Shown one piece after another: positions 23,750-64,000 of a DNA stretch of 64,000 bases. The position numbers and the translations under genes were made by a program. Where the stretch lies: assembly GCF_018320785.1 (NCBI RefSeq), contig NC_054886.1, forward strand, positions 10,849,207 through 10,913,206, written 5' to 3'. The DNA is from Cheilinus undulatus (lineage: Eukaryota; Chordata; Actinopteri; Labriformes; Labridae). The notes below the pieces were generated by a model. That model made no database searches. It saw nothing but the letters and a program-made list of their open reading frames with translations, and had not been told where the DNA came from. The number at the start of each line of letters is the position of its first letter. Position 1 is the first letter of the stretch.

Positions 23750-25284
23750 GGTGGACAAGAGGACTGACGTAGCACTAAGACGTGTAACACATAAAGAGTC
23801 CCACCTTCATTTCGTATTCCAGCGCAAAGGTTCCGCTCCAATTATTGATTGAACAAAGATAATTGTATAACTAAAATAACATAAATGAAATGAAATAAAT
23901 AAATTAGGTAAATTAAAAATAAATACAAATAAAGTAAAAAAAAGTAAATAAACAAAAACAAACAAATAAATAATAGAACAATAAGAAATAAATTGATAAA
24001 AGAAAATAGTAATTAGAAATAGAAAAAAGGAAGAATTTATAAAATAAATTTCATAAAAATATATTATTTATATGAATAATAAATTAAACAAAAAATTAAA
24101 AAAGACACTAAAATACATACTCTTGAAAAATATTAATAAACCACATAGTTGCATAATCATAATCAACTATTTATAATTAGATTAACTTAAGGGCCATCAT
24201 TTCCTTTATTTGAATAGCATAACGGATAAGTTCATAAACACATTTTTTTTTAAATATTAAATACAATACTATTAAAAATGTATTTAGAACTGCACACTTA
24301 GCAGTCTATGGCATGCATATTGCATGAGCAAGGAAATCCTTTTTCCCCCCAAAAGTTGCCAACTTTGACCTACTATTTAGCAAAGATGGAGGGAAAGAGG
24401 TCACCAACATCCCCAGCTTCACCAGCATTCCATACCCTGCCTTTATTGATGTCAACCTTAAAAGTTTATACATTCTTTCCTTGCCTTTGAAGATGATGTC
24501 ATCCTTTGAAGGGTATCAAACATTCCATCCTTGCTAACATTGCAATTGTATGTTGGATTTGAATGCAAATGAACACCGTTCTAAACCATACTTTCCTTTA
24601 AGCAGCAAAAATAATCTGTATTATTGCACATTGTCCCCAATAAATAATATCAATACAAATACATATCAATTGTATGGATCATTAGATAAATACATACATG
24701 TAATTTATAATTTTATCAAGACATACTGTACCTTTGGGGAAAATGTACAGTAAACATATTCAAAAAGATGCACAACAGTGTTTTCATATAAAAATGCCTC
24801 TTAATGTCTTATTTTCAAATCTATTATTGTCATATTTTGAAATTCTATTTTAGAGTATAGCATTAACTAGAGAAATAATTTTACTGAAATAATGACACAG
24901 GTAACACAAGGATTTTAAAAAGTGATTATTTTTTAATATAAACAAGTGTAATTCACATCTACATTATTTGTCTGTACATTTATGTCAAAACATTTCTTGG
25001 AGATACCAGTTTATCTATATGACACATATTGGTTAACTTCAAATATGTTTTTTTCATTTTTATTTGCTTTATTTTCTTCTCCTGTTTTCTGTTTGACCAC
25101 GACCCAAAACCAGCTCAGTGATTAAAAAAAAAAAAAAAACGAAAGATCAGGACAAAACTCTTAGAAAAAAATCATTAAAAAAAATTATGGAATACATCTG
25201 TACTTTCATACGTACATCCATCATCTAGTCACCCTGTGGGTTGGCTCTTTTTGGTTGGGAATGTTGTCTCCTCTTTGGTTGGGA
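23750..25284. other. mpdu1 upstream region and AT-rich spacer
   Basis: The first about 100 bases should contain the mpdu1 promoter and 5' UTR, though no TATA box or CpG island stands out. From 23880 to 24140 the sequence is nearly pure A/T with aaataaat runs. At 24440-24540 an inverted patch of the mpdu1-intron minisatellite appears. From 25081 to 25125 comes the first copy of the spacer sequence (gttttctgtttgaccacgac) that marks the 3' flank of every unit of the SPRY gene array. Confidence 0.5.
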
Positions 25285-25835
25285 ATGAGCTAGAGCTGGT
25301 GCGGAGGTGGAGCTGGACATACACACACAGCATCGGCTCTGGTACTAAACTCCTGAGGAGGGCATGGAAGTTCTTTTACTCTGGGAAACTTAGAAACCCT
25401 GGCTAAGCGCTCAGTGTTGGAGTTTTCCCAGGAGACGAACAGCAGCACAGGGTAGATAGCCCTCTTAGAGTATCTGTGGGGAATGGACAGGGAACTGATC
25501 ACAACCTGGTGTTGTGTTGGATCAGATGGTGGGGGAAGCTGCCAGACAGACCTGGTAAACCCAAACAGGTAGTGCGGGTGAACTGTGATCTTCAACTCCC
25601 ACTTCTGAAAGAACTTTGTGTACGTCCCGGGGGGGGGGGGGGGGGGGGGCAGATGGAGTCTGAGTGGGACATGTTCAAGGACTCCATTGTGAAAGCCTTG
25701 GCTAGTAATTGTGGCCAGGTGGTCATTGGCGCCTTGTGTGGCAGCAACCCCAGAACCTTGGGGTTTCTCATCCAGTCTACATGTTTTTTGTGGACTTGAA
25801 GAAGGCCTAGGATCGTGTCCCTCAGGGGCCATATT
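25285..25835 (+). mobile_element. LINE fragment, internally deleted, beside gene A 3' end
   Basis: The plus strand encodes the end of a LINE endonuclease/linker region (GTDHNLVLCWIRWWGK, then RPGKPKQVVRV) that parallels [16 protein letters not shown] in the larger element at 58.8-61.4 kb. After a run of G (25629-25649) it continues in the linker and then jumps to the reverse-transcriptase core (FLVDLKKA, stop, DRVPQG, equivalent to FVDLEKAFDCVPRG). About 0.8 kb of the parental element is missing at the jump. It lies where the 3' end of gene A should be. Confidence 0.8.
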
Positions 25836-25927
25836 GGCCTTATTTAGTTATCTTGAGATATGAAGCTGGTTTTCCTGTCAAAAGAAAATACGATACAATA
25901 TAATGGGATCTCAACATCTCTGTCCAG

Positions 25928-28900
25928 CTACCTGAAAATAGGGATCAAACCATGTTCAAAAGTATCAGAGAAGGTGTAGATGTGAACCCTTCGATCTGCA
26001 TCATAAAACGACACCTGACCCTCCTCCACATCCACGTACACCCCGATCCGTGCAGGCACGGTCACCTTCTGCAGGTTAACAAGTGTGTCGTTGCACGCCC
26101 AGAATTTGGAAGCCATCCACAGAGTGTAGAAGCCTCCACGAGGGGACATGTTGTAACATTTCATCTTCAGAGCGGACTGGGACATCACACCAATCCTCCA
26201 GTAGCCTTCAGACGACACCTCCACCTCCCAGTAATGTCTCCCTGAAGAGATGATGGTGTCTCCCAGCACAAAGGGCTGCTCGGGGCTCTGACTCTGTGAG
26301 GGAGATGAGGAGGAAGGCCCAGACTCAGAGAGCTGCAGATGGTCTGAAGACATAGCGAGCCAAGGGTGACATGTGGAGATGTCGAACTTTACAGAAACTG
26401 GGTTAGAGAAACGGATAGAGAAATACTGCATCAGAAGTAGTAGTGATTAAAAACTCTGCTGGTCAAGGTTTAAACTCAGCCTGATACATTGTTTAGTGTG
26501 GCCCCTGAGCGTTTCAAAAGAAAATCACTTTTACCACTTTTAAAGGAGCATATTGTGGATAAAATATGTTTTAAACTTAAATTGTACAGCAGTTGTACAC
26601 TTGGTCTGTTTTTCATCATAGCATGTTTTTGGTTGTCAGTACTGATTACCTGTTGCACTCTGAATCCACTGCCACACTGAAACAGACACAAACAGATAAA
26701 AACATGATGAAAGCTATTTAGTAAAAGCAAATATTAAACACTTGTAAAAAAAAAATAGAATAAGCTCTAGTACAAACATGTACTCCATGAGGAGGCCTAA
26801 ATGAGAAATAAAGGATTTAAACCAGTAAAGGATATTAGCTGACTTACCAGAGTTCGGGATGTATTTGGTGTTCCCACTCGCTGTCTTCCACGCTTTCTGT
26901 TTGCTTTGCAGCCACATCTTTGAGACAGCTTCCTGTAGGGTCAGATTCATCATACTATATTACTGTCTGTTGCTGGAATTAAACCGATATTTTTCCTTTC
27001 CTTCTGCTCTTACGCTACTAATTTGGTGAAAACATGCTCTATATTAGTTGTACAGTGACACGATACAATACAGTATGGTAAACGATAATATAAAATACAA
27101 TATGACATGATACCCCATTATACAATAGATAAAACAGGATGCAACACAATAAAAAATGATACATAGCTGGGCTATGATACAGTACGATATGATACGATAC
27201 AAAACAATACGATAGGATATGAAACAATGTGATGCGATACAATACGATAAAATACAATATGATGCAATATGATAGAATACAAACAATATGATACAATAGA
27301 ATAGGATACAATATGATAAACGATATAATGGGATGCAAAACAATACAAAAGGATATGATACAATGGAATAGAATGAAACATGAAACAATAGAATAGTATA
27401 CAATAGGATACAATATGATATGCTAAAATAGGATACAATACAAAACAATATGATACAATAGAATGGGATACAGTATAATAGGATTCAATATGATACGATA
27501 TGACCCGATAAGATACAATACAATTTGATAGAATAGGGTACAATACATTATGATACAATTCTATACGATAGAATAGGATACAATACGATACAATATGATA
27601 CTATACAAGAGGATACGATACAATACAACACAATACTATAGAAAGGAATACGATATGATACGATACTATAGAACAGAATAAGATCTGATAGAATACAATA
27701 CAGTACAATACAATACAATACAATACGATACAATATAATACAAAAGGATACAATATATGATAGAGAAGAAAACAATACAATTCGCTACAATATGAGACAA
27801 CACGATACAACACAATACCATATGATACCATACAATACCATAGAATGGGATACAATATGATAAAAAGAATAGGATGCAATACAATATGACAGGATACTAT
27901 ACCATACGATACGAAACATTACGATACATGACGATATGATACGATGCAATCATACAATAGAATATGATACAATACGATTTGCTAGAATAGGATCAATACA
28001 TTACGATACAATTTGATACGACAGAATAGGATACAATACCTTATGAGGTGATACGATACAATACGATACAATACAATAGAGTATACAATATGTTACAATA
28101 CAAGACGATACAATACCATACGACATGATACAATATGATACGATAGAAGAGGATACAATACGGTACAATACGATAGAATACAATATGATACTATAGAGGA
28201 ATACGATAGGATACAATACTATACTATACTACAATACTATAGAATAGAATACAATATGATAGGATAGGATAGGATACGGTCAGATATGATAGGATACGAT
28301 ATAATAGGAAAGGATATGATATGATAAAAAAGGATGCTGTTGAATGGGATATGATAGGATAGGATACAATACAATACAATACAATACAATACGATACCAT
28401 AGAATAGAACATGATAGGATAGGATAGGATATGATAGAACAGGATACAATATGATACATTACTATACAATATAACAATACAAAATGGTTCAGTACAATAG
28501 GATACAACAAAATACAATATGATACAATACGCTGCGATACGATACAACATGATATGATACAATAGGGCAGGACATGATACAATGCAGTATGATATGATAC
28601 AATATGATATGATTCAACATGATACAATACAATACGAAATGTTTGGATGTTATGACATGTTACAAAATGATAAAATACAATAAGTTATGATACGATGTGA
28701 TACGATACAATAATATTTGATAAGATCTGATACAATATCATTTAAAATGATACAATGTGATTTAATGGTAACAATACAATATGATAGGACATGATACGAG
28801 AGTTGACATTAGAAAAAATTAGATCAGATGAGATAGAGAAGATGGCATAATCTGATAAAATAAGATCCAGAACTATCTGTTCCGATCTGATTTGATATGA

Positions 28901-31064
28901 TGTGAAAAAGCAACAGTTAAGCAGGACACCAGAGGGTTTTAAAAACAGAAGTCTACAACCAAAAGCCAACATTACCATGTCCATGTCCACTTCTGATATA
29001 TAGTCCATGTTTGTTTCTAAATAAACTCATGGTGATAAAGGTGCTAATATCATGATCAAACCAATCCATAAATGTTAATCATAAAAAACCCACCTCAGTA
29101 TCCTCAGCCAGCAGAGACCAGGCCACAAACTCCAGCAGAGGAAGAATGGCTGACATCCTGGACTTGTTGGATCCTTGAGCATACAGCAGCTTCTTCAGCT
29201 CATCATCAGACACACCATGAGCCTGGAGGGACAATTTGAGATTTATGACAGGATATATGACACATCCTGACATGTATTTATATCCCCAAACATGAGAACT
29301 TGTCTCCTAAACAGACCTCTTTAATATCCCTCAGCTCTACAGCCCACTGCTGCAGTCTGTCGTTGAGTTTCTCCTCCTCTGGTCTCTCTTTCTCTCTTCT
29401 TCTGCTCTTTACATCTGTGACCCTGGTTTTCATGTTGGCCTGGAGATAAAACACGGAGCCTCAGAGTTACTACTTTACTGTAAAAACAGACACATTCGGG
29501 TATTTCAGTGTTTAGATAGGATGAAGAAATTAAATAAGCATCACTGACCATGTTCATCTCCAGCTCTGAGGCCCAGCTCAGGATCAGACTCTTGTTGATC
29601 TCCAGGCTCTCTGGCTCTCTGCTGCCCTCTGCTGTTGTCTCCCTCTTTTTACTGCTACATTTCCCCTGGAGAAAGAGAACTTTGTATCTGAAATGCACTT
29701 TTTTTTTTACACAAAATCCTCCACACAGTTGCTTAGATTACAAGAGTAAAACAAAGTCAGAAATGTGGATCTTGGTTTCTCATTAAGGATTTATTGATCC
29801 ATCTGGAGGAGAGAAATACTGGGAACTGCTGATTGACACACAACCCTTCCAAAAACATGCTTTATTTAAAGCTTTGGTCCTTAGTCCATCACCCATCAAT
29901 ATAAGAGAAAAAATATGTTGAAAACTATGAACACATGGAGCATGCTGAGATCTGTTACCTGGCTGATGTTGTTGACCTCCTCTGACAGTTTCTGCAGCAG
30001 CTCCAAGCACTCAGATAAACTCTGGAGTGTCTTAAAATTGTGCTAAAAAAATGAAGAAACAGTAAATTTATTATCCTCTTTCACACAACCAACTCCTGTT
30101 TAGTTTTTTGTTTTATGATTCCAACTTTTTGTGACCTTGGCTTCAGATGAGGGGTTCCAGGCAGATAAGGTGCTTGACAAATTCTGAGAATCTTTTATCT
30201 GCAAGAGCAAAATTAATTAAAATATACGTTAAAAGCTAAAAATCTTTAGTTTATGAATGCTGAGAAACAGCTGACCTGGAGCTCACTGAGGTGAGGTTTC
30301 AGCCAGGGTTCAGAGCTCACGAGACTGACTTTCTCCAAAGATTTGGCCTGAGGATGGAAGAAGAACAACTCAGAATTCAGGGATCTAAGACAGAGTTCTC
30401 AAGTTAAAGTCAAGAACCCCAAGAACCAGATGTAGAAGAGTAGGAATCCTGATTCCCAAGGAGAAGGAGTCCTCTGATCTGAGCCTGTTCTGTATCATGT
30501 CACAAATAAACTGAAAAATGAGTAATAGAAATAAAAATCAAAACAAAAAGAGTTTGTTTTTAGTTTTCTGTTCCCCAATATGATATAAAGTGCCTGAAAG
30601 TGCCCTGGGCAGTCTTCATTCATTTAAACAGGACGACTTCATTCTGGATATTCTGTCTCTATATTCAAAATGCCAAATAAAAATCTTCTTGTTCTAGTTT
30701 TAAACACGTCTCCAAAGCTGAACTTTTGACTCAACTCTCTTGATTGTACTGCAATCTTGACATACCAGCTTTATATCTCACATGTGGACTTTATCCTTGT
30801 TATTTAAACAAGATTATTAAAATTCAGAGTAAATACACTACTTTCATCGGATAAATCAGTGTTCCTCTATTTACCCCTTTTAAGTTTGACTTTGTCATAT
30901 TGGCTTTACTCTAAACAGAATGACTTCACATATCAATGGTTGACCCTTTCACCAACTTTTTAACATTCCTTTCATTAGAAAATAAAGAGAAAAAAACCTA
31001 CCCATTTCTTTGTGATTACAATTTTACTTTGGGTCTCTGACACAGTTGTCATATTTGCGGCCAT
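25928..31064 (-). CDS. Gene A: coiled-coil PRY-SPRY (B30.2) protein, unrecognised family, 10 coding exons
   Basis: Exons 5' to 3': 31002-31064, 30276-30347, 30136-30198, 29959-30042, 29549-29665, 29317-29439, 29094-29222, 26848-26932, 26650-26676, 25928-26397. All junctions are GT-AG and in frame (410 aa). The first ATG (31062-31064, acaATGg) is in good context; a second follows four codons later. Residues 1-217 come from short phase-0 exons and look helical and charged (LLQKLSEEVNNISQ 81-94; LILSWASELEMNM 121-133; EEEKLNDRLQQWAVELRDI 154-172). A 27-nt exon encodes VWQWIQSAT. Residues 255-410 are PRY (STCHPWL) plus SPRY (GRHYWEVEVSSEGYWRIGV, then VSFYDADRRVHIYTF). PRY-SPRY domains bind proteins, often in innate immunity; the role here is unknown. 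A TAG replaces the tryptophan codon that gene B uses at this point, removing the last about 28 residues, and sequence beyond is disrupted. No RING, B-box, signal peptide or membrane segment is seen. Confidence 0.82.
26933..29093. repeat. Large GATAC-type satellite expansion in gene A intron (core 27040-28800)
   Basis: About 1.75 kb of near-continuous gatac, gatatgat, acaatac and aatagaat words without strict period, one of the largest low-complexity tracts in the window. It fills the intron between the 43-residue exon and the next exon of gene A. The homologous intron of gene B (52204-53623) carries a shorter version. Overlapping Tyr/Ile/Ser-rich frames on the minus strand arise because the words avoid TAA/TAG/TGA in those frames; they are not genes. 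Confidence 0.9.
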
Positions 31065-31400: not shown

Positions 31401-31469
31401 CCTATTAAAAAACAAAAGGCGAAGCAAAGTAATACTAAAAAAACAGGTATTCATTTCTTCCCCTTTTCT

Positions 31470-31995
31470 CTCCTGTTTTCTGTTTACGACTAAGATTCAA
31501 AATCAGCAGTCATGAAAAAAACAACAACAAAGAAATATTTTTCAAAAGGTCACGTGAAATCCCTTAGCTATTCTTTCCATTTTCTCATTCCTTCTTTTGT
31601 TTGCCTGTGCTTTTTAATCTAATCTAATCTACTCCATCCTGATTGATTCAGTGTGTTGCTTCTGTAATTATAGCAGGAATAAAACAAGAAAATACACAGA
31701 TGAACAGTGATTTATACCATTTATTGTCAAGGTGGCAAAGTGCAATCATTAAGAAGTGATTAAAAATAATAATTAATGACATTAACTCATTGATTGACAT
31801 GAACATGCTTTTCATCAGAGAGAACACAGACAACCTCCATCAGATCAAACAGAACAAATCTGTTTTTACTGAGCACAGAAACCGTCCAGTTGCCATCATT
31901 TTTAAATATTTTTCCTCCAAGATAACAGATCAGTATCAGTTTGTTCCCTGATCTCTGGGTGTGAGTTTCCTCTCCATAAAAATGATTCACTGATA
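31470..31995 (-). other. Unit C 3' end: spacer, polyadenylation signal and 3'-UTR-like sequence
   Basis: The spacer word pair ctgttttctgtttacgac and aaaatcagcagtcatgaaaa (31472-31520) is the second of four copies. An AATAAA on the minus strand (31720-31725) and the following sequence match 58.42-58.64 kb (unit D) closely and 50.81-51.0 kb (gene B 3' UTR) more loosely. This therefore appears to be the 3' terminus of an upstream duplicate whose terminal SPRY exon is no longer present. Confidence 0.55.
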
Positions 31996-32809
31996 TGTTT
32001 TTTTTTTTTTTTTTTAAATCAAGGTTAAAGTTTTTATAAAGTATGAAAAATAACAGAAAGAGAGAGACAACAGAGGATCAGTTTAGGTTTACAAAGGGGA
32101 ATATAACTTTATTTGAATTAATGAATAGCTAAGAGATTATAAAGGGATTTTTTAGTTTACCTGGAGTTTTGAGGATCTTAATGTATATGTTTAAAGTTTA
32201 CAATAATGACAAGCAGCTGGAGTTTGTTGTAGGACGTTTATTACATCATGACCCCAATTAAATGTGTATCGCGATTAAATAGTTATCTGTATGTCCTGCA
32301 TCATGGCCTCTGTTATTGTTATACGTATTGAACAGAAGCCTCTGTATTGTGATATGTATCCTATTGTGGCCTCTGTATTATGATGAGTATTGTATTTTCA
32401 GTCACTGTTAAAAGCAGATGAATGATTCCAGAAGAGTTTGAAATGATGGATATAACCCAGTTTTAATAAACAGCAGAGTCATTGTAGGCAGGCACGGAAC
32501 TGCAGGGTCTGCTAAAATGACCACTGAATATCTGACAAAAGAGTAAGGGTGTTTGCTGCAGTTTATGGGGTCATGGGAGAACAGCTTCCTGTTGAAGGCA
32601 GAGCCAAAGGTAGAGGAGCCTGGGATGATTTCAGGAGGGATGAAGGGTTTGCTAATAACGGGACATGGCAGTGGTGGTGACGTGAGGAAAGGAACGGATA
32701 CACATGCACAGTGAAAACACTATTCTTTGAGAGTAACTAATGTTTTGGTGGTTGTTGATTCTTTTTCTTTTATTTCTAAGCACAGACTGAGACGAGACTG
32801 AAGGCAGTC

Positions 32810-32925
32810 CCAGCATTCATCCGAGCCCAGGGCGCATACTCCTGCAGAGGAAGAATGGATGGCATCATGGACTTTCTGGGTTCTCGGGGATCCAGCAGAT
32901 TCAGGTCAGATATTCTGTGAGCCTG
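32810..32925 (-). pseudogene. Decayed copy of the 43-residue (AHGVSDDE) exon, unit C
   Basis: After an acceptor-like ccttccag the minus strand reads AHRISDLNLLDPREPRKS, then ILPLQEYAPWAR. This aligns with AHGVSDDELKKLLY, then SAILPLLEFVAWSLL of genes A and B. It is open but strongly diverged, and no GT donor is seen at the matching end. A sister copy in unit D at 62015-62132 carries stops. This shows that unit C once had the distal exons. Confidence 0.6.
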
Positions 32926-32973
32926 GAAGGACAATTTAGAGTTATTGATAAACAAACAGACCTCTTTAAGATG

Positions 32974-35215: not shown

Positions 35216-36790
35216 AGTCTTTGCCAGGCGGTTTTCTCCACCGCATCTGTAGCATTTTCTAATGTCTGGCTAGAGCTTTGGTCGTGTGTTGCCGACCTTT
35301 TTCGCCAACCTAGCTGCTCCTTTCCATTTACCAGGTTCCTTCATGCCATGTCAATCCATAAAGTCTCTGTTTGTCACCCTCATTGCTTATATAAACTTGA
35401 GTGCAAGTCTCCTGACCGGCCTTGGCATCAATTATATCCACTGAGAAACGTCATTTTGTCTTGTCTAGTCTAAACTTTTCTCCAATTACCCTTCGAGAAT
35501 TTTAGAAATGTCCTGCCCTTCCCAAACGCTTTCTCAGGGAGCTTTCCCAGATGAATATGAAATATATATATATTCATGCAATGGAGATATCAAACAGTCT
35601 ATGTGTCCTGTCAAGTTAGCTGTTTATTATCCACAGGGCTTTATGTTGTAAACTTTTGGAATCCATCAATTCTCAACCCACAGACCTAGGGACAGAACAA
35701 TTACACACCCCAAACTAATCACTCTGCCAAAGCACACAATTCAGTCTAGCACTTCAACTGGCATCTCAGACAGTTGTGGTCAGCCATATTAGCGTTAAAC
35801 CTAGTCTTGTTCAAAAGTCAGTCTCTTTGAGCTTAATCTAGAGAATTTTTAGACATTTCTGTCGTTGTTTTAGGTTGTTGCTATGAACAAACATTTGTAT
35901 AAAGAAATCATTTTTGTCTACTCATGTTGATAAAGGGATTTCAGTCTTGATATATTCCTGTATGGTACATTTAGACCAAATAAAAATAGTGTGATTAATT
36001 TGGGATTAATCACATGTTAAGTATGAAAGTTGTGACATCAATTAAAAATCAAGATTAAAAATTCTAATCTCTTAACAGCCCTAATAAAAATGCAGGTGAA
36101 AACCTGAAAACGTTTAGTTTATGAATGTTATGAGAAACAGCTGACCTGGTGCGTTCTGAAGTTCGGTGTGATCCACAATCCAGACTGACTAACAGACCAC
36201 CGAGGCTGAAAGAAAAACAACATGTAGTCAGTCTTTATTAATCTTGACTGGCCTTGGCATCAATTAAATCCAAAGAGGAACTTGGTCATTAACAATCTAT
36301 GGTGACAGTGGACTGTCAGCTCAAGAGTTGCGCATGTGCATAACATCTTTCTGTCTTGTTCAGACTCTTCATTTGTGCCACTGATCACTAGATCTCTCAT
36401 CACTGTCAATGAGAATTCATAGTCCTGCTCCAGATTTCTCAGTTCTGCCACATAATCACCCACACTTTGCTTTTTTTCTAGAGCCCCCTGTTGGCACAAA
36501 GATGCAACAACATTCCACAGTCACTTCATGACACAGGGGAAGGGCACAAATTTTAGACATTTTAGAATATATCCAAAATCTGTACATATTAATGATTATT
36601 TTCAAGGCTCCAGTTTCAAACCAGGACACCCAAGAAGTTTTCTGAGAGGTATCAAGGATGATTGGAGCAACAGTGTGGCATCAATTTTGACACAGACAGA
36701 CAGACAGACAGACGGACGTTGCAATTATAGTAGTAGGACATTTGTCTGTTATGTGTCTGATGTTACTGACCCCCTCTGACAGTTTCTGAA

Positions 36791-36846
36791 CCACAAGCGA
36801 GCCCTTGTGGTCCGTTATGAGCGACTCTGCGGCCGCTCATAACGGA
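36791..36846. repeat. Two adjacent perfect hairpins inside a ruined exon
   Basis: ccacaag (36791-36797) pairs with cttgtgg (36804-36810), and immediately afterwards tccgttatgagcg (36811-36823) pairs with cgctcataacgga (36834-36846), with a 10-base loop. The sister exons at 39318 and 41240 have only the right-hand arm (ataacgg). The left arm is therefore a secondary inverted copy. Confidence 0.85.
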
Positions 36847-37129
36847 CCTGAAAGGAGAAGAAACTGCAAATTTTGTTTCCTCTTTGACACAACCAACTAC
36901 TTTATTTGACTTTGATTCAGACTTTTTTGTGACCTTGGCTTCAGATGAGGAGTTTTAGACCATTGTACTGATGAAAATATTCTACCAGATATACTTAGAA
37001 AAACCTAGGCCACTTTTTTTGCATAACATTTCCATTCTTCACACTAGAGGAATTGATAAGATACATGCATGTGAAGTACTTAATGTGCTTTTTAATTTCT
37101 AGAAGACCTCAGGATGGAGCTCTGAAATA

Positions 37130-38200
37130 AGATAAGCCAGTTGTAATTACTGATAACTGTTCACCTCCAAGCCCACACTGACCACGTATATATAAGAATA
37201 CCAGCAAGCCCTCAATTCTGCCTGGTCCACCTACTACTCCCAAATTATCCTTTCCAGCTCCTCCAACCCTAAAGCTCTTATCGCCACTGTCAATAAACTC
37301 CTTAAACCCTATAACAATAGCCCCTCAATCTTCCCCATTGACAAATGCAACACATCCCTATCAAATTTCCAATCTAAAATTTACAACATTTACAGCGGAT
37401 TAAGCAACCTCCCGTCCACCCCTGACCCCATCCAATCAAACCTCCTTAAAAAATGTCTCTTAGCCATCTCTACTGTCATTACCACCATCATCAACTCCTT
37501 CCTTTGCATGCACTGGTTCTGTTCCCCTATCCCTAAAACTTGCAGCTGTTACCCCATCCTCAAAAACCTGAATCTAACCCTGATCACATGACTAACTCCC
37601 AGCCCATCTCCAACCTCCCCTTTCTGTCAAAAATTCTGGAATGCGCCATCGCCACACAACTCAAGTCCCACTTCTCCCATAACAAACTTTATGAACCATT
37701 CCAATCCCACCTCTGACCCCAACACAGCACTGAAACAGCACTAGTGAAAGTCACCAACAACCTCCTCTTCTTACTTCCTCTGACTCCGGCCACATCAACA
37801 TCCCCATCGTCCTGGACCTCTCAGCTGCATTTGATACCATCAACCACTCCATCCTGCTCTCCCATCTGGAACATTCACTTAACATCACTGATACAACACT
37901 TTCCTGGATTAAATCACGCACAGACAACAATTCATTCACATCAACAACTGCTCCTCCTCCACCACTCCCCTGACACTAGGCATCCCCCAAGGTTCGGTGC
38001 TTGGTCATTATCTAACTGCTCCCTCTTGGTAATATCATTCGCCACCATGGACTTCACTTCACTGTTACACTGACGACATCCAGCTTTACATCTCCACCAC
38101 CTCCATCACCACAAACACACACTACACCTTAAACAACTGCCTCTCTGAAAAAAACCCCCCTGATGAACAACAATTTCCTTTCACTAAAATACAATTAAAA
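37130..38200 (+). mobile_element. Decayed LINE reverse-transcriptase relic
   Basis: Frame-shifting plus-strand sequence keeps the order of a non-LTR reverse transcriptase: ISNLPFLSKILECAIATQLK (about 37600-37670), HSTETALVKVTNNLL (about 37730), VLDLSAAFDTINHSILL (about 37810-37860), LGIPQGSVLG (about 37975) and a YTDDIQLYIS form of the YADD active site (about 38065). At least three frameshifts and several stops are present, so it is inactive. It separates two of the tandem exon blocks of unit C and belongs to a different LINE lineage from the 58.8-kb element. Confidence 0.8.
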
Positions 38201-41171: not shown

Positions 41172-41203
<32 letters not shown>

Positions 41204-43060
41204 GTCACCAATTACAGTAGTAGGACATTTGCCTGTTATCTGTGTGATGTTGCTGACCTTCTCTGACAGTCTCTGAAGAATATTCCTGCTCTCCAACAGA
41301 CTCTGCGGCCGATCATAACGGAACTGAAAGGAGAAGAAAGTTTTATTTCCTCTTTGACACAACCAACTACTTTATTTTACTTTTTTGTGACCTTGGCTTC
41401 AGATGAGGAGTTCCAGACAATTATACTGATAAAAATATCCTACCAGATCTACTCAGAAAAACCTAAGCCACCTGTTTGCATGACTTTTTCTTTTTTTCCA
41501 AACAACAACCATAATTTATCAGCTCCTTTAAAAGCATCTCAGAGCTCTAACTCAGCACATTCAATTTTTCATGATTGTAATTTGTTTTTACAAATCAGTG
41601 CTATTGGTCACCCTTTACATCTGTCAGTGGGTTTTTAACTAATTCTAAATGAATAAAATATGTAAAAAGATGTATTTTTTATTCCCTAAAAACCTCGGAT
41701 TTTGAAGTCTTGAAAGAATGAATCATTTTTACAAGCTGAAAATAATTGAAATTACATGTATCTCAAAGAAAAAACAAGTTAAACAAAGGTAAGTCTCATT
41801 GAATCTACTTGAAAATGTAAGTAAATTTCACTTCAACTTTTTTGTTCTTGAACTTTAACAGAGTAGCAGTTTTTTTTAAAGATTAATTTGGCTTATCTAC
41901 AAAAATAATGTATGCAAAAAGTTGCCTAGGTTTTGTGGGTTGGGCTGAATATTTTTTATCAGTGCACAGCTCGATAAATCCTCAGATTCTTTTTTTCTAC
42001 AGGAAAAAAATCCAATGAAAATGGAGACTGTCAAAGTTAACCCATTAATGCCAAAGGCAGGCCATGCTGGACTGTTTACAATGGAGATGCTCAGACAACT
42101 CTGCAAGAAACAAACTTTTAACAGTCTTTGTTCTCATTGGACTGTATCATTCTGTTTTGAGCCCACTTGGTGTAACGGGATTTTTCTGTTAGCCTTTATT
42201 TCCCCATGTGAGGCTGAAATTCTCTGTTTTCAGGGTAAAGGACCCAGGAATGATCTTAAAGAGATTTAAAATTGAACTGACCATGTACTTTATGAATATG
42301 TGTGATGATGAGATTTGTTGTTATGTGTTAGGCTGCTGAGAACAACAGAGGAGTAACTTCTAGAAGTCTGAAGTTGGACACTGCATTATGGTGTTATTCA
42401 GTATTGTAACATTAAGGTCAGTATCCATTACCATGCTATGTAGCATTCAGTCTCTTTGAGCTTAATCTAGATATATTTTTAACATTTCTGTTGTTGTTTT
42501 GGATTGTTTCCATGAACAAACATTTGCATAAAGAAAGCATTTTTGTCCACTCATGTTGATAAGGGGATATTCATCTTGATTTATTCCTGTATGGTACATT
42601 TAGACCAGATAGAAATGGAAAAAAAAATTTGGGATGAATCAAAAGTTAACTCTGAAAGTTGTGACATCAATTGAAAATCAAGATTCAAAAATTTAATTTC
42701 TTGACAGCCCTAATAAAAATGTAGGTGAAAACCTGAAAACATTTAGTTTATGATTATTATGAGAAATAGCTGACCTGGTACTCATTGAAGGTAGGTCTGC
42801 CACCAGTCTTGTAAGAGTGTACAGCACGCCGGCGAAGCTGAAGAAAACCAACATTTAATCAGTTTAAATCAATCCTGGTGTTCAGAATCAACTGCATAGA
42901 AGATTCAACCCCAAATTGAAATAAAACACTGAAACAGCTACCTGACAAACATTTAGTTTATGAATGTTACGAGAAATAGCTGACCTGGTACTCATTGAAG
43001 GTAGGTCTGTTGCCAGTCTTGTAAGAGTGTACAGCACGCCGGGGAGGCTGAAGAAAACCA

Positions 43061-49860: not shown

Positions 49861-49861
49861 T

Positions 49862-50310: not shown

Positions 50311-50569
50311 ATTAGACATTATGCATTAGTATTTACTGGAAATTGCAGCGAATATATATTTTCTACTGTTGATATAAGTTATGACTCGTCAAGTAGAAGT
50401 GGGATGTAGAGGGTTTGTAGCAAGGTCAGTGGTTTCATTACTCAGAGAGCTGGGGATGCAGGGACAGAATTTACAAAAGACAGTTAAGGAGATGTCAGAC
50501 GACGCAGTTCAGGCCAGTCAGTTGATTTGGATGAGGAGTCATAACGCTCTACCTCCCCCTACTCCCTTG

Positions 50570-51243
50570 TATTCTGTTTAATCATGACTAGAACCCAAAA
50601 CCAGCCGAGTCATGAAACAAACCATCAAAGAATAGCAAAAAACAACAAAAAAGAAACATTAAAAGTCACGTGGTATTTTATAATGTGTGTATTTTTTTCC
50701 ATTTAATCTATCTAATCTTAATCTCTTCCTCCTTTAAACTGATGGAGTATTTTCTTCTGTAAATAAAGGAAGAATAAAACACAAAGAAATGAATTCAGGA
50801 TTTCCATCTTTTATTGTGTTAAAGGTGGCCAAGTGCAGACATTGGAAGGTGTAGTGATAAGAAAAATATAATGGAAGTAACTGATAAGAACAAGATCTTC
50901 ACGGGGGACACATGAAACTTTCTTCAGATGAAGCAGAACATTTGAATCTCGATAATTCCCGATATGAATGCAGAGCACAGAAACCTTGAGTTGATTCTGA
51001 GGGAGGATTCCCTCACTCCTCGCCAGTTCAGCACACTTTTCCTGAAGTTGCCAACAAAGACAGTTAGCATGAGATGGACAGTAAAGTTGTGGTTGTTACT
51101 CCAATACAGTCTAAACTAAAAGATACAGAATTAATGTCAAACAGAACCCAGGAGACCTTCTGAAGATCTTCATGAAGCAACAGATAAATACTCATTATTG
51201 CAGGAAATCAGAGTAAAGTGAACTTTGAAGAAGCATGTTCCCT
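50570..51243 (-). other. Gene B 3' UTR, polyadenylation signal and 3' spacer
   Basis: A minus-strand AATAAA at 50810-50815 lies about 430 bases after the gene B stop. Sequence beyond it contains the array spacer (attctgtttaatcatgacta, then ccaaaaccagccgagtcatg; 50570-50620), the third of four copies. Parts of the UTR (ggtggccaagtgcagacatt) align with the 3' ends of units C and D. Confidence 0.65.
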
Positions 51244-54200
51244 TCAAGCATCCATCACTGTTACATGTTTTCCCTGAGCATGGACTAGCAGGTCAGCTTG
51301 TCTGATTTTCAGCTGTGTGCCTTTCTCCAGCCACCCAAACACAGGGATCAGACCGTGTTTGAAGGTATCAGAGAAGGTGTAGATGTGAACCCTTCGATCT
51401 GCATCATAAAATGACACCTGACCCTCCCCCATGTCCACGTACACCCCAACCCGTGCAGGCATGGTCGCCTTCTGCAGGTTAACAGGCGTGTTGTCACATG
51501 CCCAGAATCTAGACGCCCTTAACAGGGTGTAGAAACCTCCATGAGGGAACAGGGTGGGGCTTTTCTTCTTCAGAGTGGACTGGGACATCACTCCAAACCT
51601 CCAGTAGCCTTCAGACGACACCTCCACCTCCCAGTAGTGTCTCCCAGCAGAGATGATGGTGTCTCCCAGCACAAAGGGCTGCTCGAGGTCCCTCTGACTC
51701 TGAGAATGAGATGAGGAAGGCTCAGTCTCAGAGAGATGCAGGTCTGAGGTGAGCCAGGGGTGACATGTGGAGACGTCAAACCGTACAGACACTGGATTAG
51801 AGAAAGAGACAGAGAAACATCAGGAGTAGAAGTGATAATAGCACATATGTCAAAGTCAAAGTTAGGTTCAACAGTTCAACGGTCTGTTTTCTATCTTAAT
51901 ATGTCCGTCGTTGATTGTGAGTGTTAATTACCTGCAGCGCTCTGAATCCACTGCCACACTGAAACACAAACAGATAAAAACATAACAGCAAGTTATTAAA
52001 AACAAAAATCAAACACTCAGAAAGAAAATAAGCTCCATATAGTACGAACAGGCACTCCACAAAGCAATCTAAATGAGAAATATAGATATAGACCAGTAAA
52101 GGATGTCAGCTGACTCACCAGAGTTCGGGATGTATTTGGGGTTTCCGCTCGTCGTCTTCCACGCTTTCTGTTTGCTTGGCAGCCACATCTTTGAGACAGC
52201 TTCCTGCAGGTTTAAATTCATCTCACATTACTGTCTGCTGTTGTCAATTTGAACATGTTTTTTTCTGGTCTTTCTCCTCTTTACCTCATGTCTGGTTTAA
52301 ACATGTTCCACATCATGTGTACACTCATCAGTAATCAGATTATTCCTTATTTATCAGCAGTAATGTCACAGCAGAAACAAAAATGGAAAGACACATTTTT
52401 GGACACAACGGGAAATGATCTGACACAATCTGATCTGATCCAGTACAATAATATATGCTAAGATATTAAATAATACAGTATGAAAATCTAACAGGATATG
52501 ATATGATGGGTAATGATGAGGTGAAATGACACAATATATGATATGATATGGAAAAATACAATGTGATGGAAGATGAGAAAAGACAAGAAAATACCAGATA
52601 AGATTATTTGATATCTAAATCGATTAGAAAATTTGTGGTACAATTTTTTTTGAAGACATGATACAGTATAAAATATGATTAGATATGAGAGAGATGGAAC
52701 ATGGCCAAACAAGATGATAGAACACAATCTGGTACAGTACTCTATGATACGATACAGTATAATATGTTACGATAAGATTGTATAGTCACTTACTGCTAAG
52801 CTATGACAACATACCCAAACATAATGTTTGCGTAACACAAACATTACATTATGATAAAGAAACATTAACTTTAATGTTTTCCCTAATGTATAATTTGTTA
52901 CTTAAACATGAAGTTCATGTGACATTAACATTACGCAAACATAACATTAACGCAGTGTTTACATAATGTAAACATTAAATTATGAGAGTGTATCATTTAC
53001 GCTTGCAATAACGTAACATGTATGTCATGTAATGTGACATGTGATAATGTGATTTAACATTTACATTAACCTTGCGTTTGTGTTACATAAACATTGAGTT
53101 ATTGTGACGTTAACATTAATGTAAGTTTTATGTGATGTAATGTTGAGGTTAATGTAATGTTATGTTAATGTAAAATAATGTTCAGTTAACTTTTGTGTTA
53201 TGTAAACATTACATTACTGTGATGTTTATGCTAAGGTAATGTTTACGTTAAGGTTATGAAACAATACAATGTGAAACGATACAATACATCGGATAAAAGA
53301 AGGCATGTTATGTTTAAGTTACAATAATGTAATGTTTTTGTTTCATTATAATTGAATATATGTGAGATAAAGTAGGTTACAATTCAGTATGTTACATTAT
53401 GTTATGTTACAAGAGCACATGATGCCACAAAAAAGGTGCAAAACAGTATGACATGCTATGAGCTACGCTGAGTTGATACGATATGAGCTAAATTTAGATT
53501 AGATGAGACGAGACAAGACGGGATGATCTGATAAAATATGCCATCAAGTCTAAGAAGTTTGGTAATAAAATCTATGACATCCCTATTAAAACGTATTATA
53601 AATAATAACCAACAGAAACTCACCTCAGTATCCTCAGCCAGCAGAGACCAGGCCACAAACTCCAGCAGAGGAAGAATGGCTGACATCCTGGACTTGTTGG
53701 ATCCTTTGGGATACAGCAGCTTCTTCAGCTCATCATCAGACACACCGTGAGCCTGGGGGTACAATTTGAGATATAGGACAGGATATATGACACATCCTGA
53801 CATGTATTTATATCCCCAAACATGAGAACTCATCTCCTAAACAGACCTCTTTAATATCCCTCAGCTCTACAGCCCACTGTAGCAGTCTGTCATTGAGCTT
53901 CTCCTCATCTGGTCTCTCTTTCTCTCTTCTTCTGCTCTTCACATTTGTTCCTCTAGTTTTCATGTTGGCCTGGAGATAAAACACAGAACCTCGGGTTTGT
54001 GGATTTACTGTGAAATATGTTAATATGATTCACATATTTCTCATGTTTAAGTCAAAGTATGACTAAATGAAGGAGTACTGACCATGTTCATCTCCAGCTC
54101 TGAGGCCCAGCTCAGGATCAGACTCTTGCCGATCTCCAGACTCTCTGGCTCTCTGCTGCCCCCTGCTGGTGCCTCCTTCTTCTTTCTGCTATGTTTCCCC

Positions 54201-57200
54201 TGGACAAAAAAAAAACCCATCTGACATAAATCTTAAATACACTTTGAACCTGTGTTAGCTGTAGATATCACTCTGAATTTTTTTTTTCTAGTGGATTTAT
54301 TTGTCTCCTACATCACTGGTTCTTTATTATTTTCAGTCTCCTTTTAACCCCAGTCTTAATGAAGCCAAACATGATGTAGCTTTATTCCACGTTTTGGGAC
54401 TTTTCTGCACCATTGACCATGATATATCAGACAATATAAGCAGGTTAAAACATGTAGATTTGGAACTATGAAAGTATGGAGGATGCTGATATCTTTCTGT
54501 TACCTGGCTGATGTTGTTGACCTCCTCTGAGAGTTTTTGCAGTAGCTCCATACACCCAGACAGACTCTGCATGGACATCAGATCAGACTGAAAGGAGGAG
54601 AAACTGATTTCAACACACTATCCTTTATTTATTTGACTCTGATTTGGACTTTCAGCTACCTTTGCTACAGACGAGGACATCCAGGCTGGAACAGTGCACG
54701 ATAAATCATTAGATTCTTTAATCTGCAGGAAATATCACATGAAAAATGCACCTTAAAACCGAAGAATCTTTCAGAAATAATGAATGAATGTCATGAGATT
54801 GAACAGCCGACCTGGAGCTCACTGATGTCAGGTCTCAGCCAGGATGCAGAGCTCACTTGAGTGATTTTCTCCACAGCTTTGGTCTAAGGAAAAAAAAAAA
54901 AAAGTTTGGTGTACACAAGCCCGAAGTGGACATACATCCATAGTCTTTATTCTACTTAGTTTTCCTGTTATAACAATTAAAACTTCAGCCAATTATTCAA
55001 GATTTCACTGTAATTCATAATCATTCTGGGCATAACAAGGCTGGTTTCCCCAGTACAAAGAGGTAATTTCTAAGAAATTACCAAAATTTCATTCTAAGCA
55101 AAATTCACAAACTTAATTTGTGTGGTCAAAATGTTTTCAGGTGTGGGTGTTCATTAGTCATGAGTGGGTGGAAATGAATCCTTATGTCTGACTAGTTTAG
55201 AACCACTGCTGTTGAATTCTGATTAAATGAAGAGACCATGAAGACTGACACCATTGATAACATGGTGACAAATTCAAGTTTTTAACTGTGTAATAAAGCT
55301 GTTTAAAATTAACTTAACAAGATGTCTGCAGCATTTTTATGTTTTTAATAAATCAGGTTCCTTCAGGCCCTGTTTACTTCATTTATTCATTTATTTATTC
55401 TCATCTTTGAGTTGAATACAAAAACCCAGAACGATTGAATTTGCATGTTAAATGAATTTATCAGATCATGCTGATATTTTGTTTTTATGATGCATTTTCA
55501 GAATAAAGTAAAAATTGAACATTCGATGTCTTTGATACCTGCAAAAGTATTCATCCCCTTGGATAAATCTTTAGTTTATGAATGCTGAGACACAGCTGAC
55601 CTGGAGCTCACTGAGGTGAGGTTTCAGCCAGGGTTCAGAGCTCACAAGACTGACTTTCTCCAAAGATTTGGCCTGAGGATGGAAGATGTGCAGAAGTGTC
55701 CAATGTAGAAGATTGAATGCCAAATTGAAAATAAACATTGGAATAACTGCTTTATGAATGATTTATTTTTATTTTACTATTTATTTATTTTTAAAGCTTA
55801 AAAGTTAAGAGAGGTATATTTTTGTTGTTTGAGACACAAACATTTTTTCTTAAATTCTGTGTTTTAAGTCGGGATTCGGAAATTTAACTCAGAATTCAGG
55901 GATCTAAGTCAGAATTCTCAAAAAGGTCAGGCCTCAGGGTTTAGGGTCAGCATTCTGAAATAAAATGAATTAAGAATAATGAATCTCATGATATACAGCC
56001 GACCTGTAGCTCACTGAGTTCAGGTCTCAGCCAGGGTTCAGAGTTTGAAAGACTGAATTTCTCCACAGCTTTGCCCTGAAGATAAACATTAAAAACATTT
56101 AATCAGCCTTAATTAAATCTTGATGTAAAGAGAGTGGACTATATTGAAGCTCCAACAGCAAAATGGAACTCAAAATTGGAATAGCTGCATGTTAAACACT
56201 ATCAGGTTTATAAAAGTATGCTTGATGTTCTTAGTTTCTATGTGGCTACTCAGGTTACTGTGGGAGAAACAGCCTATCCCAAGAACCAGATGTAGATGAG
56301 TGGGAATCCTGATTCCCAAGAAGAAGGAGTCCTCTGATCTAATCCAGTTCTGTATCATGTCACTCTTGAATGTTGAAGGGAAGATTTTCTTTAGTTTCAG
56401 ACACAGAGGTTAAATAGTTATTTAGAAATGAACAGGTTAAGAGACACAACAGCGCAGAAAGAAAATGTCAAAAAAGAATGTCACAGCCCCAGTGTTCTAT
56501 TGTTCTATTCAGTTTCTTTGAAACTGATAAATGAGTAACAGAAATAAAAATCAAAACAAAAAGAGTTTGTTTTTAGTTTTCTGTTCCCCAGTATAATATA
56601 AAGTGTCTGAAAGTGCCCTGGGTGGCTGGTCCCCCTTGTTTTGCTTTTATGTTTTTAAGAGTAAATTGGTGAACAGCTTGTTTCTTGATTATCAACATAA
56701 AAATCTGTTTGCTATAATGTACACTGACCCGCCCTGACTGACCTGTCCAATCAGATTGGTGAGATTTGTTCTGCAGTCCATCAATCTTTGCACCTTATTT
56801 TTGTCAACCATTATATGTGTTTTGATTCAAAATAGATGAATAATGCTATGTCAATGTTTGTCTTCTAGACTTGGAATAAGGATTTGATTTGTTATTTTTT
56901 CAGTCATTTAGGCTATCTTGTGGTTATCGTTTATAATACAAAGGGTTAATAGCTTATAGTCAAAGGAAACCAGAGTAGCCCACAAAGGTGCAAACTTTGA
57001 TTTCCTGATCATTGTGTCACAGTGAAACAGGTACATGTACTACAACTGTAAAATAAAGGTTTGAATAACAAGCCGGCTTAAACATGCCCTGGATTTGAAT
57101 ATCTCTGGATTACTGTAAATCCCTTCATGCAATAAATCAAATAAAAAGTGGAGTAATCTTTGAGCTGAAGTATTTTTTCATATCAACATAAAGCCAACCT

Positions 57201-57745
57201 TTTTATGTGTTGATATTCAGAGGAAGAGCAACACAAAAATCAACATGGAATGTTTGATTATTTAAAAATCAGACCAAACTTCTAAAAGTAACTGCAAGAA
57301 GACATCATGAGTTTATTTAGTTAGTTGATGTGGTGTATCTAGTATGTAGCAGCGAGAAGCATGAGATGTCATGAGAAGTACAGTATTAGTGGATTTCAAA
57401 ACTACAGATTTGGTTATTAGTGCCCCATGATAGTTTTCAAAGTTTAAGTCACCTTTTTCGAATTATGCCAAACAGTTATGAAATTTACAAGACAAAATAA
57501 ACAAGATTATCAAATTCAGAGTAAATACACTACTTTCACCGATAAATGAATGTTCCTCTAATATTCTCTTTAAGTTTGACTTTGTCATATTGGCTTTACT
57601 CTAAACAGAATGACTTCACATAACAAAGGTTGACCCTTTCGCCGACTTTTTAACATTCTTTTCATTAGAAATAATAATTTAAAAAAAAACCTACCCATTT
57701 CTTTGTTTTTACAAATTTACTTTGGGTCTCTGACACAGGTGTCAT
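51244..57745 (-). CDS. Gene B: coiled-coil PRY-SPRY (B30.2) protein, unrecognised family, 12 coding exons
   Basis: Exons 5' to 3': 57695-57745, 56004-56075, 55601-55672, 54812-54883, 54660-54722, 54504-54587, 54083-54199, 53847-53969, 53624-53752, 52119-52203, 51932-51958, 51244-51791. All junctions are GT-AG and in frame, giving 480 aa plus stop. The start is the ATG at 57743-57745: gene A's upstream ATG is ATA here, with stops beyond it. Residues 18-89 are three tandem copies of a 24-residue module (EKVSLVSSEPWLKPHLSELQ type), one per exon; gene A has one. Then come helical exons (90-261), VWQWIQSA from the 27-nt exon, and PRY-SPRY (299-480: STCHPWL, GRHYWEVEVSSEGYWRFGV, FYDADRRVHIYTF, and an end GWLEKGTQLKI that gene A lacks). 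No RING, B-box, NACHT, signal peptide or membrane segment is seen, so an intracellular protein is likely. Function is unknown; PRY-SPRY suggests a protein-binding, possibly immune, role. Confidence 0.86.
52204..53623. repeat. Gene B intron: GATAC-like tract and AACATTA/TAATGTT-rich tract
   Basis: The intron homologous to the satellite-filled intron of gene A. The first part (52430-52780) has gatac/gatatg words. The second (about 52800-53330) is dense in aacatta, taatgtt, tgtttacataatgtaaaca and similar words. These are largely self-complementary, so the region is full of short palindromes. Confidence 0.8.
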
Positions 57746-58090: not shown

Positions 58091-58789
58091 TGGATTATGA
58101 AAAAAACACAAAGCAAAATAATACTAAATAAATCAGGTAATCAATTCTTCCCTTTTTCTCTGCTGTTTTCTGTTTAATCACGACTAAGATTCAAAATCAG
58201 CAGTCATGAAAAAAACAATAAAGAAATGTTCTTTAAAAAAAAAATCACATGATAATTAGCTATTCTTTCCGTTTTCTCATTCCTTCTGTTATTTGCCTGT
58301 TTATTTTGCCTTTGCTTTTTAATCTAATCTACTCCATCCTAATTAATTCAGTGTGTTGCTTCTGTAATTAAAGGAATTAAAGGAATAAAACGAGAAAATA
58401 CAGAGATGAACAGTGATTTATACCATTTATTGTCAAGGTGGCAAAGTGAAATCATTAAGATGTGCAGTGATTAAAAATAATAATTAATGACATGAAATCA
58501 TTGATTGACATGAACATGCTTTTCATCAGAGAGAACACAGACAACCTCCATCAGATCAAACAGAACAAATCTGTTTTTCCAGAGCACAGAAACCATCCAG
58601 TTGCCATCATCAGTTTCAGTTTGTTCCCTGATCACTAGGTGTAAGTTTCCTCTACATAAAAATGATTCACTGATATGTGTTTTTTAAACAAAAATCAAGG
58701 TTAAAAGTTTTAATGACAACTTTCATATAAAGTATGAAAAATAACAGCAAGAGAGACAACAAAGGTAAATATAACTTTATTCAAAGGTA

Positions 58790-61360: not shown

Positions 61361-62234
61361 TTAAAAACCTTTAAAGGTCACCTCTTCTGTTGTCCACTAC
61401 AATAATGACAGGCTGCCGGAGTTTGTTGTAAGACATGTTTATAACATCATGTTTATGAAATTAAATTAAATGTGTACAGTGATTAAATAGTTATCTGTAT
61501 GTATCACATCATGGCCTCTGTTATTGTTATACGTATTGAATCGGAGCCTGTGTATTGCGATATATATCCTGTTGTGGCCTCTGTATCATGATGAGTATTG
61601 TATTGTCAGTCACTGTTAAAAGCAGATGAATGATTGCAGAAGAGATTGAAATGATCAATATAACCCAGTTTTAATAAACAGCAGAGTCATTGCAGCCAGG
61701 CGTGGAGCTGCAGGGTCTACTAAAATGACTGCTGAATATCTGACAAAAGAGTAAGGGTGTTTGAGTCCCGACTACAGTTTTACAGGGTCATGGGAGCACA
61801 GCTTCCTGTGTCAAGCAGAGCCAAAGGCAGAGGAGTGTGAAATGATTTCAGGAGGGATGAAGGGTTTTACTATCAATGGGACATAGCAGTGGTGGTAAGG
61901 TGAGGAAAGGAATGCAGTGAATAGATTATTCTTTGAGAGTAACTAATGTTTTGGTGATTATTGATTCTTTTTCTTATATTTCTAAACACAGACTCAGATG
62001 AGACTTAAGGCAGTCTCAGTATTCACCCGAGCCTAGGGTGCATTCTCCTGCAGAAGAAGAATAGATGCCATCTTGGACTTTCTGGGTTCTTCAGGATCCA
62101 GCAGATTCAGCTCAGTGAGCTCTGTGAGCCTGGATGACAATATATAATTATTGATAGGATATATGATACATCCTGACAATGTGAGTGTTTCAACGCATGT
62201 GTATCTTCAAACATAAGAACTCTTTTCCCAAACA

Positions 62235-62770
62235 GACCTCTTAGATAAGATTAGAAGAGATATCCCTTTATTAGTCCCAGAAAGGGAAATTCCAAATTCA
62301 CAGCAGCAAGAGTGGTGTAAACAAAGCACACAAGAGAGTAAAAAGAGCATTCGACAAGTACAATGAATAAATACTAATAGGACATATAAAAATGTAATTT
62401 ACAAATTAAAAATGTATAAATAGTATTTACAGGAGACATTTATACGTACACCTATATACACAAATATACATGCACAAATATATATAAACAAACTTGTAGG
62501 GATTATACATATAAATATTAGTTATTGCACAATAGTTTTTATTTGGAACACTTTTTGTTGTGGAGCCTAACAGCCGCAGGAAGGAATGACCTGCGATTCC
62601 TCTCCTTCACATACTTCGGGTGTAGCATCCTGAATATCCCTGGTGCTCCTTCTAAAATACCCTACTTGACATTCTAGTGTATCTACAGCCTGTGTCTACT
62701 TTAGATTTTGCATTTTTCCCATTTACCTTTAGCTCTTTTCTGATTGTTTCTTCTCTAGGAATGACTATCA
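62235..62770. repeat. Dispersed repeat shared with unit C
   Basis: ttattagtcccagaaaggga, then aattcacagcagcaag, and later gccgcaggaaggaatgacct are characteristic of a common interspersed fish repeat. The same element lies in unit C (33033-34300), split there by the hAT insertion, so it predates the duplication of the two units. Confidence 0.55.
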
Positions 62771-64000
62771 CCTCATCCAGACTCTACATCGTCACCTTCT
62801 TTAGGCCTTTGCACACAGAGTCCGTTTCTTTCATCTGAATTTTTGCACGTTTATGTTGAGAAATAAAATGGAGCTCATGGTGTGCTAATGATTTTTACAC
62901 ATTGATGATTTGGATTGGAGTCTGCTGCCCCACTTTAAACATTGTAATTTGTCTGTGTATTATGTGGATATCAACTTTGGAATTATAACAGATAAAGGCA
63001 GAAGTTTGTACTCAAAGCCATCTAACACCTAGTCTACACTGTGTGATTCTGGGCTGTCCCAGACCAAAGATGACCAGTCGTGGTGATATCTTTGGTTGTG
63101 GCTCTAAAACGATGGTCCTCACTGGGACAGACGGCTGTTGTCATGGTCTTACGACCCAAGATATCCTGGGATAAAATTCTGACAGTGTCAGAAATGTAGG
63201 ATGAATATCTCACGACATGACTGCAGCTAAGACCTACGTTGACGAACCAACGAGTAGAAATGCAGGATGAAATGATGTCACTATAAATACGACACTAGTC
63301 CCAACAAACAAGTTTGCATTAGAATGGAGACAATGCCAAAATGCAGAAGTTTGTGGGATTCCAACAAGAGGAAAATCATGATCCAGATGTTTTTCTAAGC
63401 CTATGAATGCTATATTTACATTGGGTTTGTAACTGCTGTGCTCTATGATTTACCATGGCACTGTCAGCATAGATGGATGATGCACACTGATATGGCACAC
63501 TGATGACATTTATTACTTTACACATCACTGTACATCGTAGCCTGCAATTCAGCCTGCTGTTTAGTGGGAGTTGTAATCATTCAGTCTGCACACATCAAAC
63601 TTGATGTTGTGTAAGATTCATGTCTCACAGTGTAGCATGGCAGAGATCGCTAAAAATGCAAAGTCTGCAGGAGGACCAAGAGAGACAGGATGAAAAAGTT
63701 CTCTCCAACTTGGCTCAGCGCTATTATGCATGAGTGTGTGCACGCTGGGTGGATCCAGTGTGATTTTAAAGGTGTGATGGAGTCACAGGCTTGCAGTACA
63801 AAACAATTTGCCACATTGTATGAATTTGGCCCAAAGAAAGGTGACGTTTTCTCAGATTATAGAGCTGAAAAAAAGCAGCAGAAAATAATAGACCCTGTGT
63901 GTGATGACCTTAAGGACAGAACAAGAAGTATGTAGAAAAGTAAAATTAGAGATTTTTAAGACTACTCATAAAGTGAAAGTATGCGAAAACTACTCAATGA

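Follow-up and report, generated by a model that had tools for sequence, protein, structure and literature searches.

We describe here a tandem array in a 64,000-base stretch of the Cheilinus undulatus genome (contig NC_054886.1, positions 10,849,207 to 10,913,206), made up of one intact gene, one truncated gene, and two relics. This stretch is called the window below; it contains 0 N, and coordinates are counted from its first base. The last exon of both genes is predicted to encode a PRY/SPRY (B30.2) domain. All genes and relics described lie on the minus strand (an earlier note on this DNA had put them all on one strand), and in the direction of transcription the units follow one another as D, B, C, A. 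The tandem array is real, yet it does not consist of four equal genes: B is intact, A is truncated, and C and D are relics.

Comparison of the window with itself gave collinear duplicates at 25.9-35.1 kb and 51.3-63.9 kb. Identity is 80 to 89% in duplicate blocks of at least 200 bases, the top three of which span 1128, 773, and 738 alignment columns, and weaker matching pieces carry the duplication to 25.08 and 50.56 kb. The layout fits a history in which an old duplication would have given rise to C-like and A-like units and the pair would then have been duplicated to give D and B.

Gene models

Exons were placed where an open frame common to A and B is flanked by AG and GT. B has 12 coding exons (480 amino acids) and A has 10 (410 amino acids); the exon sums, 481 and 411 codons including the stop, reproduce both gene models of the earlier note. 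The 72-bp exon called rep occurs three times in B and once in A, and exons e2 to e8 have the same sizes in both genes.

Gene B:
57695..57745, minus strand: exon 1 (51 bp, MTPVSETQSKFVKTKKW), donor GTAGGT
56004..56075, minus strand: rep exon 1 (72 bp)
55601..55672, minus strand: rep exon 2 (72 bp), 71/72 bases the same as in A
54812..54883, minus strand: rep exon 3 (72 bp)
54660..54722, minus strand: e2 (63 bp)
54504..54587, minus strand: e3 (84 bp)
54083..54199, minus strand: e4 (117 bp)
53847..53969, minus strand: e5 (123 bp)
53624..53752, minus strand: e6 (129 bp)
52119..52203, minus strand: e7 (85 bp)
51932..51958, minus strand: e8 (27 bp)
51244..51791, minus strand: e9 (548 bp including stop), PRY/SPRY intact, Pfam SPRY 5.5e-15 for the whole protein
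50810..50815, minus strand: AATAAA 3' of B, kept in C and D

Gene A:
31002..31064, minus strand: exon 1 (63 bp, MAANMTTVSETQSKIVITKKW)
30276..30347, minus strand: rep exon (72 bp)
30136..30198, minus strand: e2
29959..30042, minus strand: e3
29549..29665, minus strand: e4
29317..29439, minus strand: e5
29094..29222, minus strand: e6
26848..26932, minus strand: e7
26650..26676, minus strand: e8
25928..26397, minus strand: e9 (470 bp), PRY/SPRY shortened by TAG, Pfam SPRY 1.3e-15

Exons up to e7 are entered in phase 0, and e8 and e9 are entered in phase 1. GT..AG borders 20 of 20 introns (9 in A and 11 in B), which taken alone is partly circular support because exon ends were picked at such sites. 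In A, TAG replaces B's TGG close to the end of SPRY. Similarity between A and B ends at 25.92 kb, and most of A's 3' region is lost. Pieces of a long interspersed nuclear element (LINE) relic lie 3' of A at 25.28-25.82 kb and resemble the retrotransposon of unit D. The e6-e7 intron of A holds a long, degenerate array with a 5-bp base (27177-28637, ATACA/ATACGAT type), and that of B holds a shorter stretch with weak similarity to it.

Coding constraint between A and B is evident independently of splice-site choice, because exons e2 to e8 contain 0 indels against gapped introns and because synonymous differences are in excess. Six introns were aligned (the long e6-e7 intron and the introns before e2 are not among them); e5-e6 is free of gaps, and each of the others has 4 to 17. 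Indels in the SPRY exon are whole codons in the protein alignment. Pooled differences number 64 at 255 synonymous sites versus 88 at 906 nonsynonymous sites (Fisher p = 1.7e-9, counts rounded). Synonymous divergence (dS), nonsynonymous divergence (dN), and dN/dS are 0.273, 0.082, and 0.30 for B's second rep exon (rep2) with e2 to e6 and 0.341, 0.127, and 0.37 for e7 to e9. Nonsynonymous differences are concentrated in two 20-codon stretches picked after inspection (28/92 versus 19/260 sites, p = 1.6e-7); positive selection there is not established because synonymous differences are denser too (about 11/28 versus 19/79) and the first stretch is poorly aligned.

Decayed units and unit boundaries

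Units C and D are relics without the SPRY exon.

Unit C:
46008..46067, minus strand: exon 1 remnant, GC for the GT donor
36745..41433, minus strand: three e2-e3 remnants and rep-like remnants
41233-41333, 39311-39411, and 36745-36857, minus strand: e3 remnants
32809..32932, minus strand: e6 remnant (nhmmer E 6.3e-19)
31461..31856, minus strand: 3' spacer

Unit D:
62015..62134, minus strand: e6 remnant with an in-frame stop (nhmmer E 2.5e-15)
58147..58567, minus strand: 3' spacer

C retains a degraded exon 1, rep, e2, three e3 copies, and one e6. The GT donor is gone from two of the e3 copies, one of which also carries an 11-base insertion. Its e2-e3 modules multiplied before or during decay. 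Within unit C, the region 35440-41500 contains a threefold repeat with copies of roughly 1 kb or longer, about 81-84% alike, and each copy has an e2-e3 remnant. D, which extends to the end of the window, consists of the e6 relic with its stop, the 3' spacer, and a LINE; the latter is a non-long-terminal-repeat retrotransposon (58710-61316) with RVT_1 matches and a subthreshold Exo_endo_phos_2 match. Models of e4, e5, e7, and e8 found no match in C or D (E up to 0.1). A pattern scan of the window placed the SPRY signature at 26.2 and 51.6 kb only, and tblastn with the SPRY of B found no further convincing place in the window.

Exon 1 is identifiable in A, B, and C, and the 5' regions that include it match among these three. 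The C counterpart of A's exon 1 is MAENTTPEENQTEIKIMRKK, followed by GC instead of GT. At the other end, the 3' spacer of B (50553-50940) matches those of C and D, and the AATAAA, about 430 bases past the stop of B, lies within the block conserved in C and D; what remains of A's spacer is a short piece (25078-25180). Exon 1 lies about 400 bases from the next 3' spacer, from A to C and likewise from B to D, and there is therefore scant space for an additional exon between units. The earlier note had four comparable units with matching 5' regions and 3' spacers, forming an expanding family. The spacers do match, together with their common AATAAA, in B, C, and D, with A keeping its fragment, and the 5' regions match in A, B, and C, none being seen for D within the window. 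The description as four comparable, expanding genes fails, as the SPRY exon is present at two places only, A carries TAG for TGG, and C and D are degraded.

Damage to three of the four units (the stop in the SPRY of A and the missing SPRY exons of C and D) and loss of the first ATG in B would be expected if the entire cluster were dead or dying, with B unexpressed or lately silenced. We judge this quite unlikely: B is open across 12 exons with 11 GT..AG introns and the conserved AATAAA, and A and B have been constrained since their split, though a recent loss is not datable by that measure.

Predicted protein

The Pfam SPRY match is above the cutoff of 26.3 bits in both proteins (B, 56 bits; A, 58 bits). 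PRY scored 14.6 and 16 bits in A, against a cutoff of 27.5, and none was reported in B; PDB alignments span part of it. Among the best 60 of 95 PDB matches, butyrophilin 3 and pyrin are the closest solved B30.2 relatives, and TRIM58, TRIM7, and TRIM21 rank lower; the match to butyrophilins and pyrin is mainly limited to the B30.2 region, and no Ig, PYD, or B-box family was found by Pfam. A structure predicted from the single sequence of the B SPRY frame (191 residues, the first few intronic) had a mean predicted local distance difference test score of 41.6 and a predicted template modeling score of 0.44, values too low to support a comparison of folds, with a low-confidence strand on LKIRQA, which lies past the stop of A.

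The N-terminal part comprises about 230 to 300 residues encoded by short exons, most of which contain a tryptophan; that of B, with exon 1, has 297 residues and 12 tryptophans. Without exon 1 (280 residues), it had no match in either Pfam or PDB at E up to 10, a two-row profile of the N-terminal part gave no PDB match, and NCBIfam gave none at E up to 1 (a prokaryote library, hence weak evidence). For A, TMEM247 (E 0.39) and PCRF (E 7.9) were listed far under the Pfam cutoff, and these matches are taken as chance. The e5 model also detects e4 (nhmmer E 0.002), and these exons may thus go back to an ancient duplication. A coiled coil is not supported: the best 28-residue window had an a/d hydrophobic fraction of 0.75, a value attained by 588 of 1000 shuffles in a homemade heptad measure without a positive control. 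No RING or B-box pattern was found on either strand of the window, in a scan that had no positive control and that leaves RING exons beyond the window possible, and Pfam (E up to 10) gave no RING, B-box, NACHT, FISNA, LRR, Ig, or PYD family for either protein. Within these scopes, the earlier note is supported in describing a tandemly duplicated, PRY-SPRY-ending family that lacks RING, B-box, and NACHT, and the N-terminal part that it called novel has no Pfam or PDB match; its coiled coil is not supported.

No description of such a family was found in the open-licence literature (titles and abstract beginnings, few word combinations; absence unproven). Any novelty is relative to Pfam, PDB, NCBIfam, and that literature and is unproven. 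A suspected likeness to AXDND1 was unsupported by Pfam or the open-licence literature. Viral capture was also rejected, with 83 pattern matches in viral contigs and 0 confirmed.

An N-terminal part unrelated to immune domains in Pfam would suit a non-immune origin, in which a helical structural, germline, or ciliary gene gained a B30.2 exon and was duplicated locally, as would the lack of an interferon-type site conserved across the three 5' regions. Pfam gave no axonemal family, and nothing found in the open-licence literature connects SPRY or B30.2 with AXDND1 or with axonemal dynein light chain. Duplication, decay, and exchange in tandem are, moreover, more typical of immune families, and we consider the non-immune origin unlikely.

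Comparison with known families

As in teleost finTRIM, bloodthirsty, and trim35-like genes, a single terminal exon with about 545 coding bp carries B30.2, and copies stand in tandem on the same strand, probable pseudogenes included (PMC2657112, PMC3137616). finTRIM exons measure 555-594, 96, 234, 154, 60, and about 545 bp (PMC2657112). Only the last agrees; here, exons of 72, 63, 84, 117, 123, 129, 85, and 27 bp precede it, the two before SPRY being 85 and 27 bp rather than 154 and 60 bp. Unlike in finTRIM, the window shows no RING or B-box pattern, and a coiled coil is unsupported. In zebrafish NLR-B30.2 genes, N-terminal exons encoding about 30 amino acids are repeated, and there is a large FISNA-NACHT exon (PMC4852459). 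The array resembles NLR-C/NLR-B30.2 genes in its short repeated front exons (24 amino acids here), single-exon B30.2, and, probably, exchange between copies (PMC4852459) and differs in having no NACHT, FISNA, or LRR family in the Pfam scans; no stop-to-stop frame in the window exceeds 261 codons. Most zebrafish NLR-B30.2 genes have a 47-bp exon ahead of B30.2 (PMC11192531), unlike the 27-bp exon found here.

The array is filed under no known TRIM or NLR family because RING, B-box, and NACHT were not found and the exon series differs. We consider it very unlikely that the array belongs to an established TRIM or NLR-B30.2 family, its RING or NACHT exon overlooked or situated beyond the window and e2 to e7 forming a diverged coiled coil, even though its B30.2 is of the TRIM/butyrophilin class and its final coding exon (548 bp) is close in size to that of finTRIM. 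The absence of RING and B-box patterns in the 64 kb, the exon sizes, and a conserved exon 1 that bears an ATG and immediately precedes rep argue against it, as do heptad periodicity at shuffle level and an N-terminal part without a PDB match, though PDB includes TRIM chains.

Uneven divergence between copies

At synonymous sites, A and B have diverged strongly in e2 (0.94) and e3 (1.03), less in e5 (0.37), and little in rep2 (0.07), e4 (0.09), and e6 (0.06). Synonymous differences number 17/31 sites in e2 and e3 versus 5/72 in rep2, e4, and e6 (p = 2.6e-7, the grouping being set post hoc with e5, 7/24, excluded). A stretch of 122 bases around rep2 is 98.4% identical between A and B. The e2-e3 segment of A is 72.5, 73.0, and 70.4% identical to the three C modules versus 65.9% to B. 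The roughly tenfold synonymous jump between adjacent exons of A and B suggests gene conversion, and the simplest account would be gene conversion or unequal crossing over between neighbors, with C-type sequence as a donor. The number of modules varies as well: rep is present once in A and three times in B, and C has multiple remnants of rep, e2, and e3.

Other features of the window

A PQ-loop match (Pfam, E 3.8e-12) lies in the frame at 20341-20541, and we take this frame to resemble MPDU1; probable mpdu1 exons at 20154-20541 on the minus strand help to place the locus. A plus-strand frame at 3293-3574, for which there was no Pfam match, presumably resembles the C terminus of a Sox19-type protein. 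sox15/sox19 lies between mpdu1 and eif4a1 in 9 of 10 teleosts (PMC8244163). The array likely sits near mpdu1.

A Tc1/mariner-like element occupies 46360-47949; its inverted ends (46360-46589 and 47727-47949) are 94% identical, and it includes a frame for a DDE_3 transposase (46622-47251). A second Tc1-like transposase fragment lies at 9319-9753 (HTH_SB, E 8.6e-13). Minisatellites are found at 11306-12121 (36 bp, 23 copies) and 15771-16340 (48 bp, 12 copies), the latter containing a 128-codon open frame on the minus strand that encodes 16-residue repeats. Structured RNA was rejected, as 0 of 4227 Rfam families reached the gathering score.

Interpretation

We give a probability of about 50% to the array being a small tandem family of RING-less B30.2 recognition or adaptor genes of ray-finned fish, near mpdu1 and most likely serving innate immunity. 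In favor of this reading are the exon models with their constraint, the Pfam SPRY match, the conservation of exon 1 in A, B, and C and of the AATAAA in B, C, and D, the absence of RING and B-box patterns, the uneven divergence, and the scant space between units. An immune function is likely by association with related families, and the array is probably another fast-changing fish recognition gene family. The protein would be intracellular, with the loops of B30.2 binding a protein ligand and N-terminal segments that may be helical and self-associate or dock a partner. As RING is lacking, the protein would have no ubiquitin ligase activity itself and may serve as an adaptor, blocker, or decoy; the copies would swap sequence through gene conversion or unequal crossing over. 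The SPRY domain of grass carp Trim47 is reported to act without ubiquitin (PMC12286827).

Several points weigh against this interpretation. The gene models are predicted from genomic DNA alone, and B is the sole intact unit. The first ATG of A is ATA in B, whose start is shifted four codons later, and out-of-frame ATGs, each opening a 15-codon frame, stand at 31071 (A) and 57764 (B), just upstream of the proposed starts; the start of B is less certain than the rest of its model because of the ATA and the out-of-frame ATG just before it. No listed interferon-type motif is common to the 5' regions of A, B, and C; TTCNNNGAA and AANNGAAA sites are common to those of A and B, a count made with no chance control. 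Exon e4 by itself shows no constraint (dN 0.103, dS 0.091), and B's rep exons show differences at 10-12.5 of 56 nonsynonymous versus 0.5-2.5 of 16 synonymous sites, so these parts are weakly constrained or diversifying.

A bolder version of the RING-less recognition family, which we hold to be possible though doubtful, is an undescribed fish family in which a B30.2 sensor would sit on a stack of tiny exon modules swapped by conversion, so that the scaffold would be varied too, with decayed units serving as donors. If B is expressed, fish B30.2 genes would gain an architecture without RING or NACHT, and the array would be a compact example of exon-by-exon exchange between an intact gene and its decayed neighbors.

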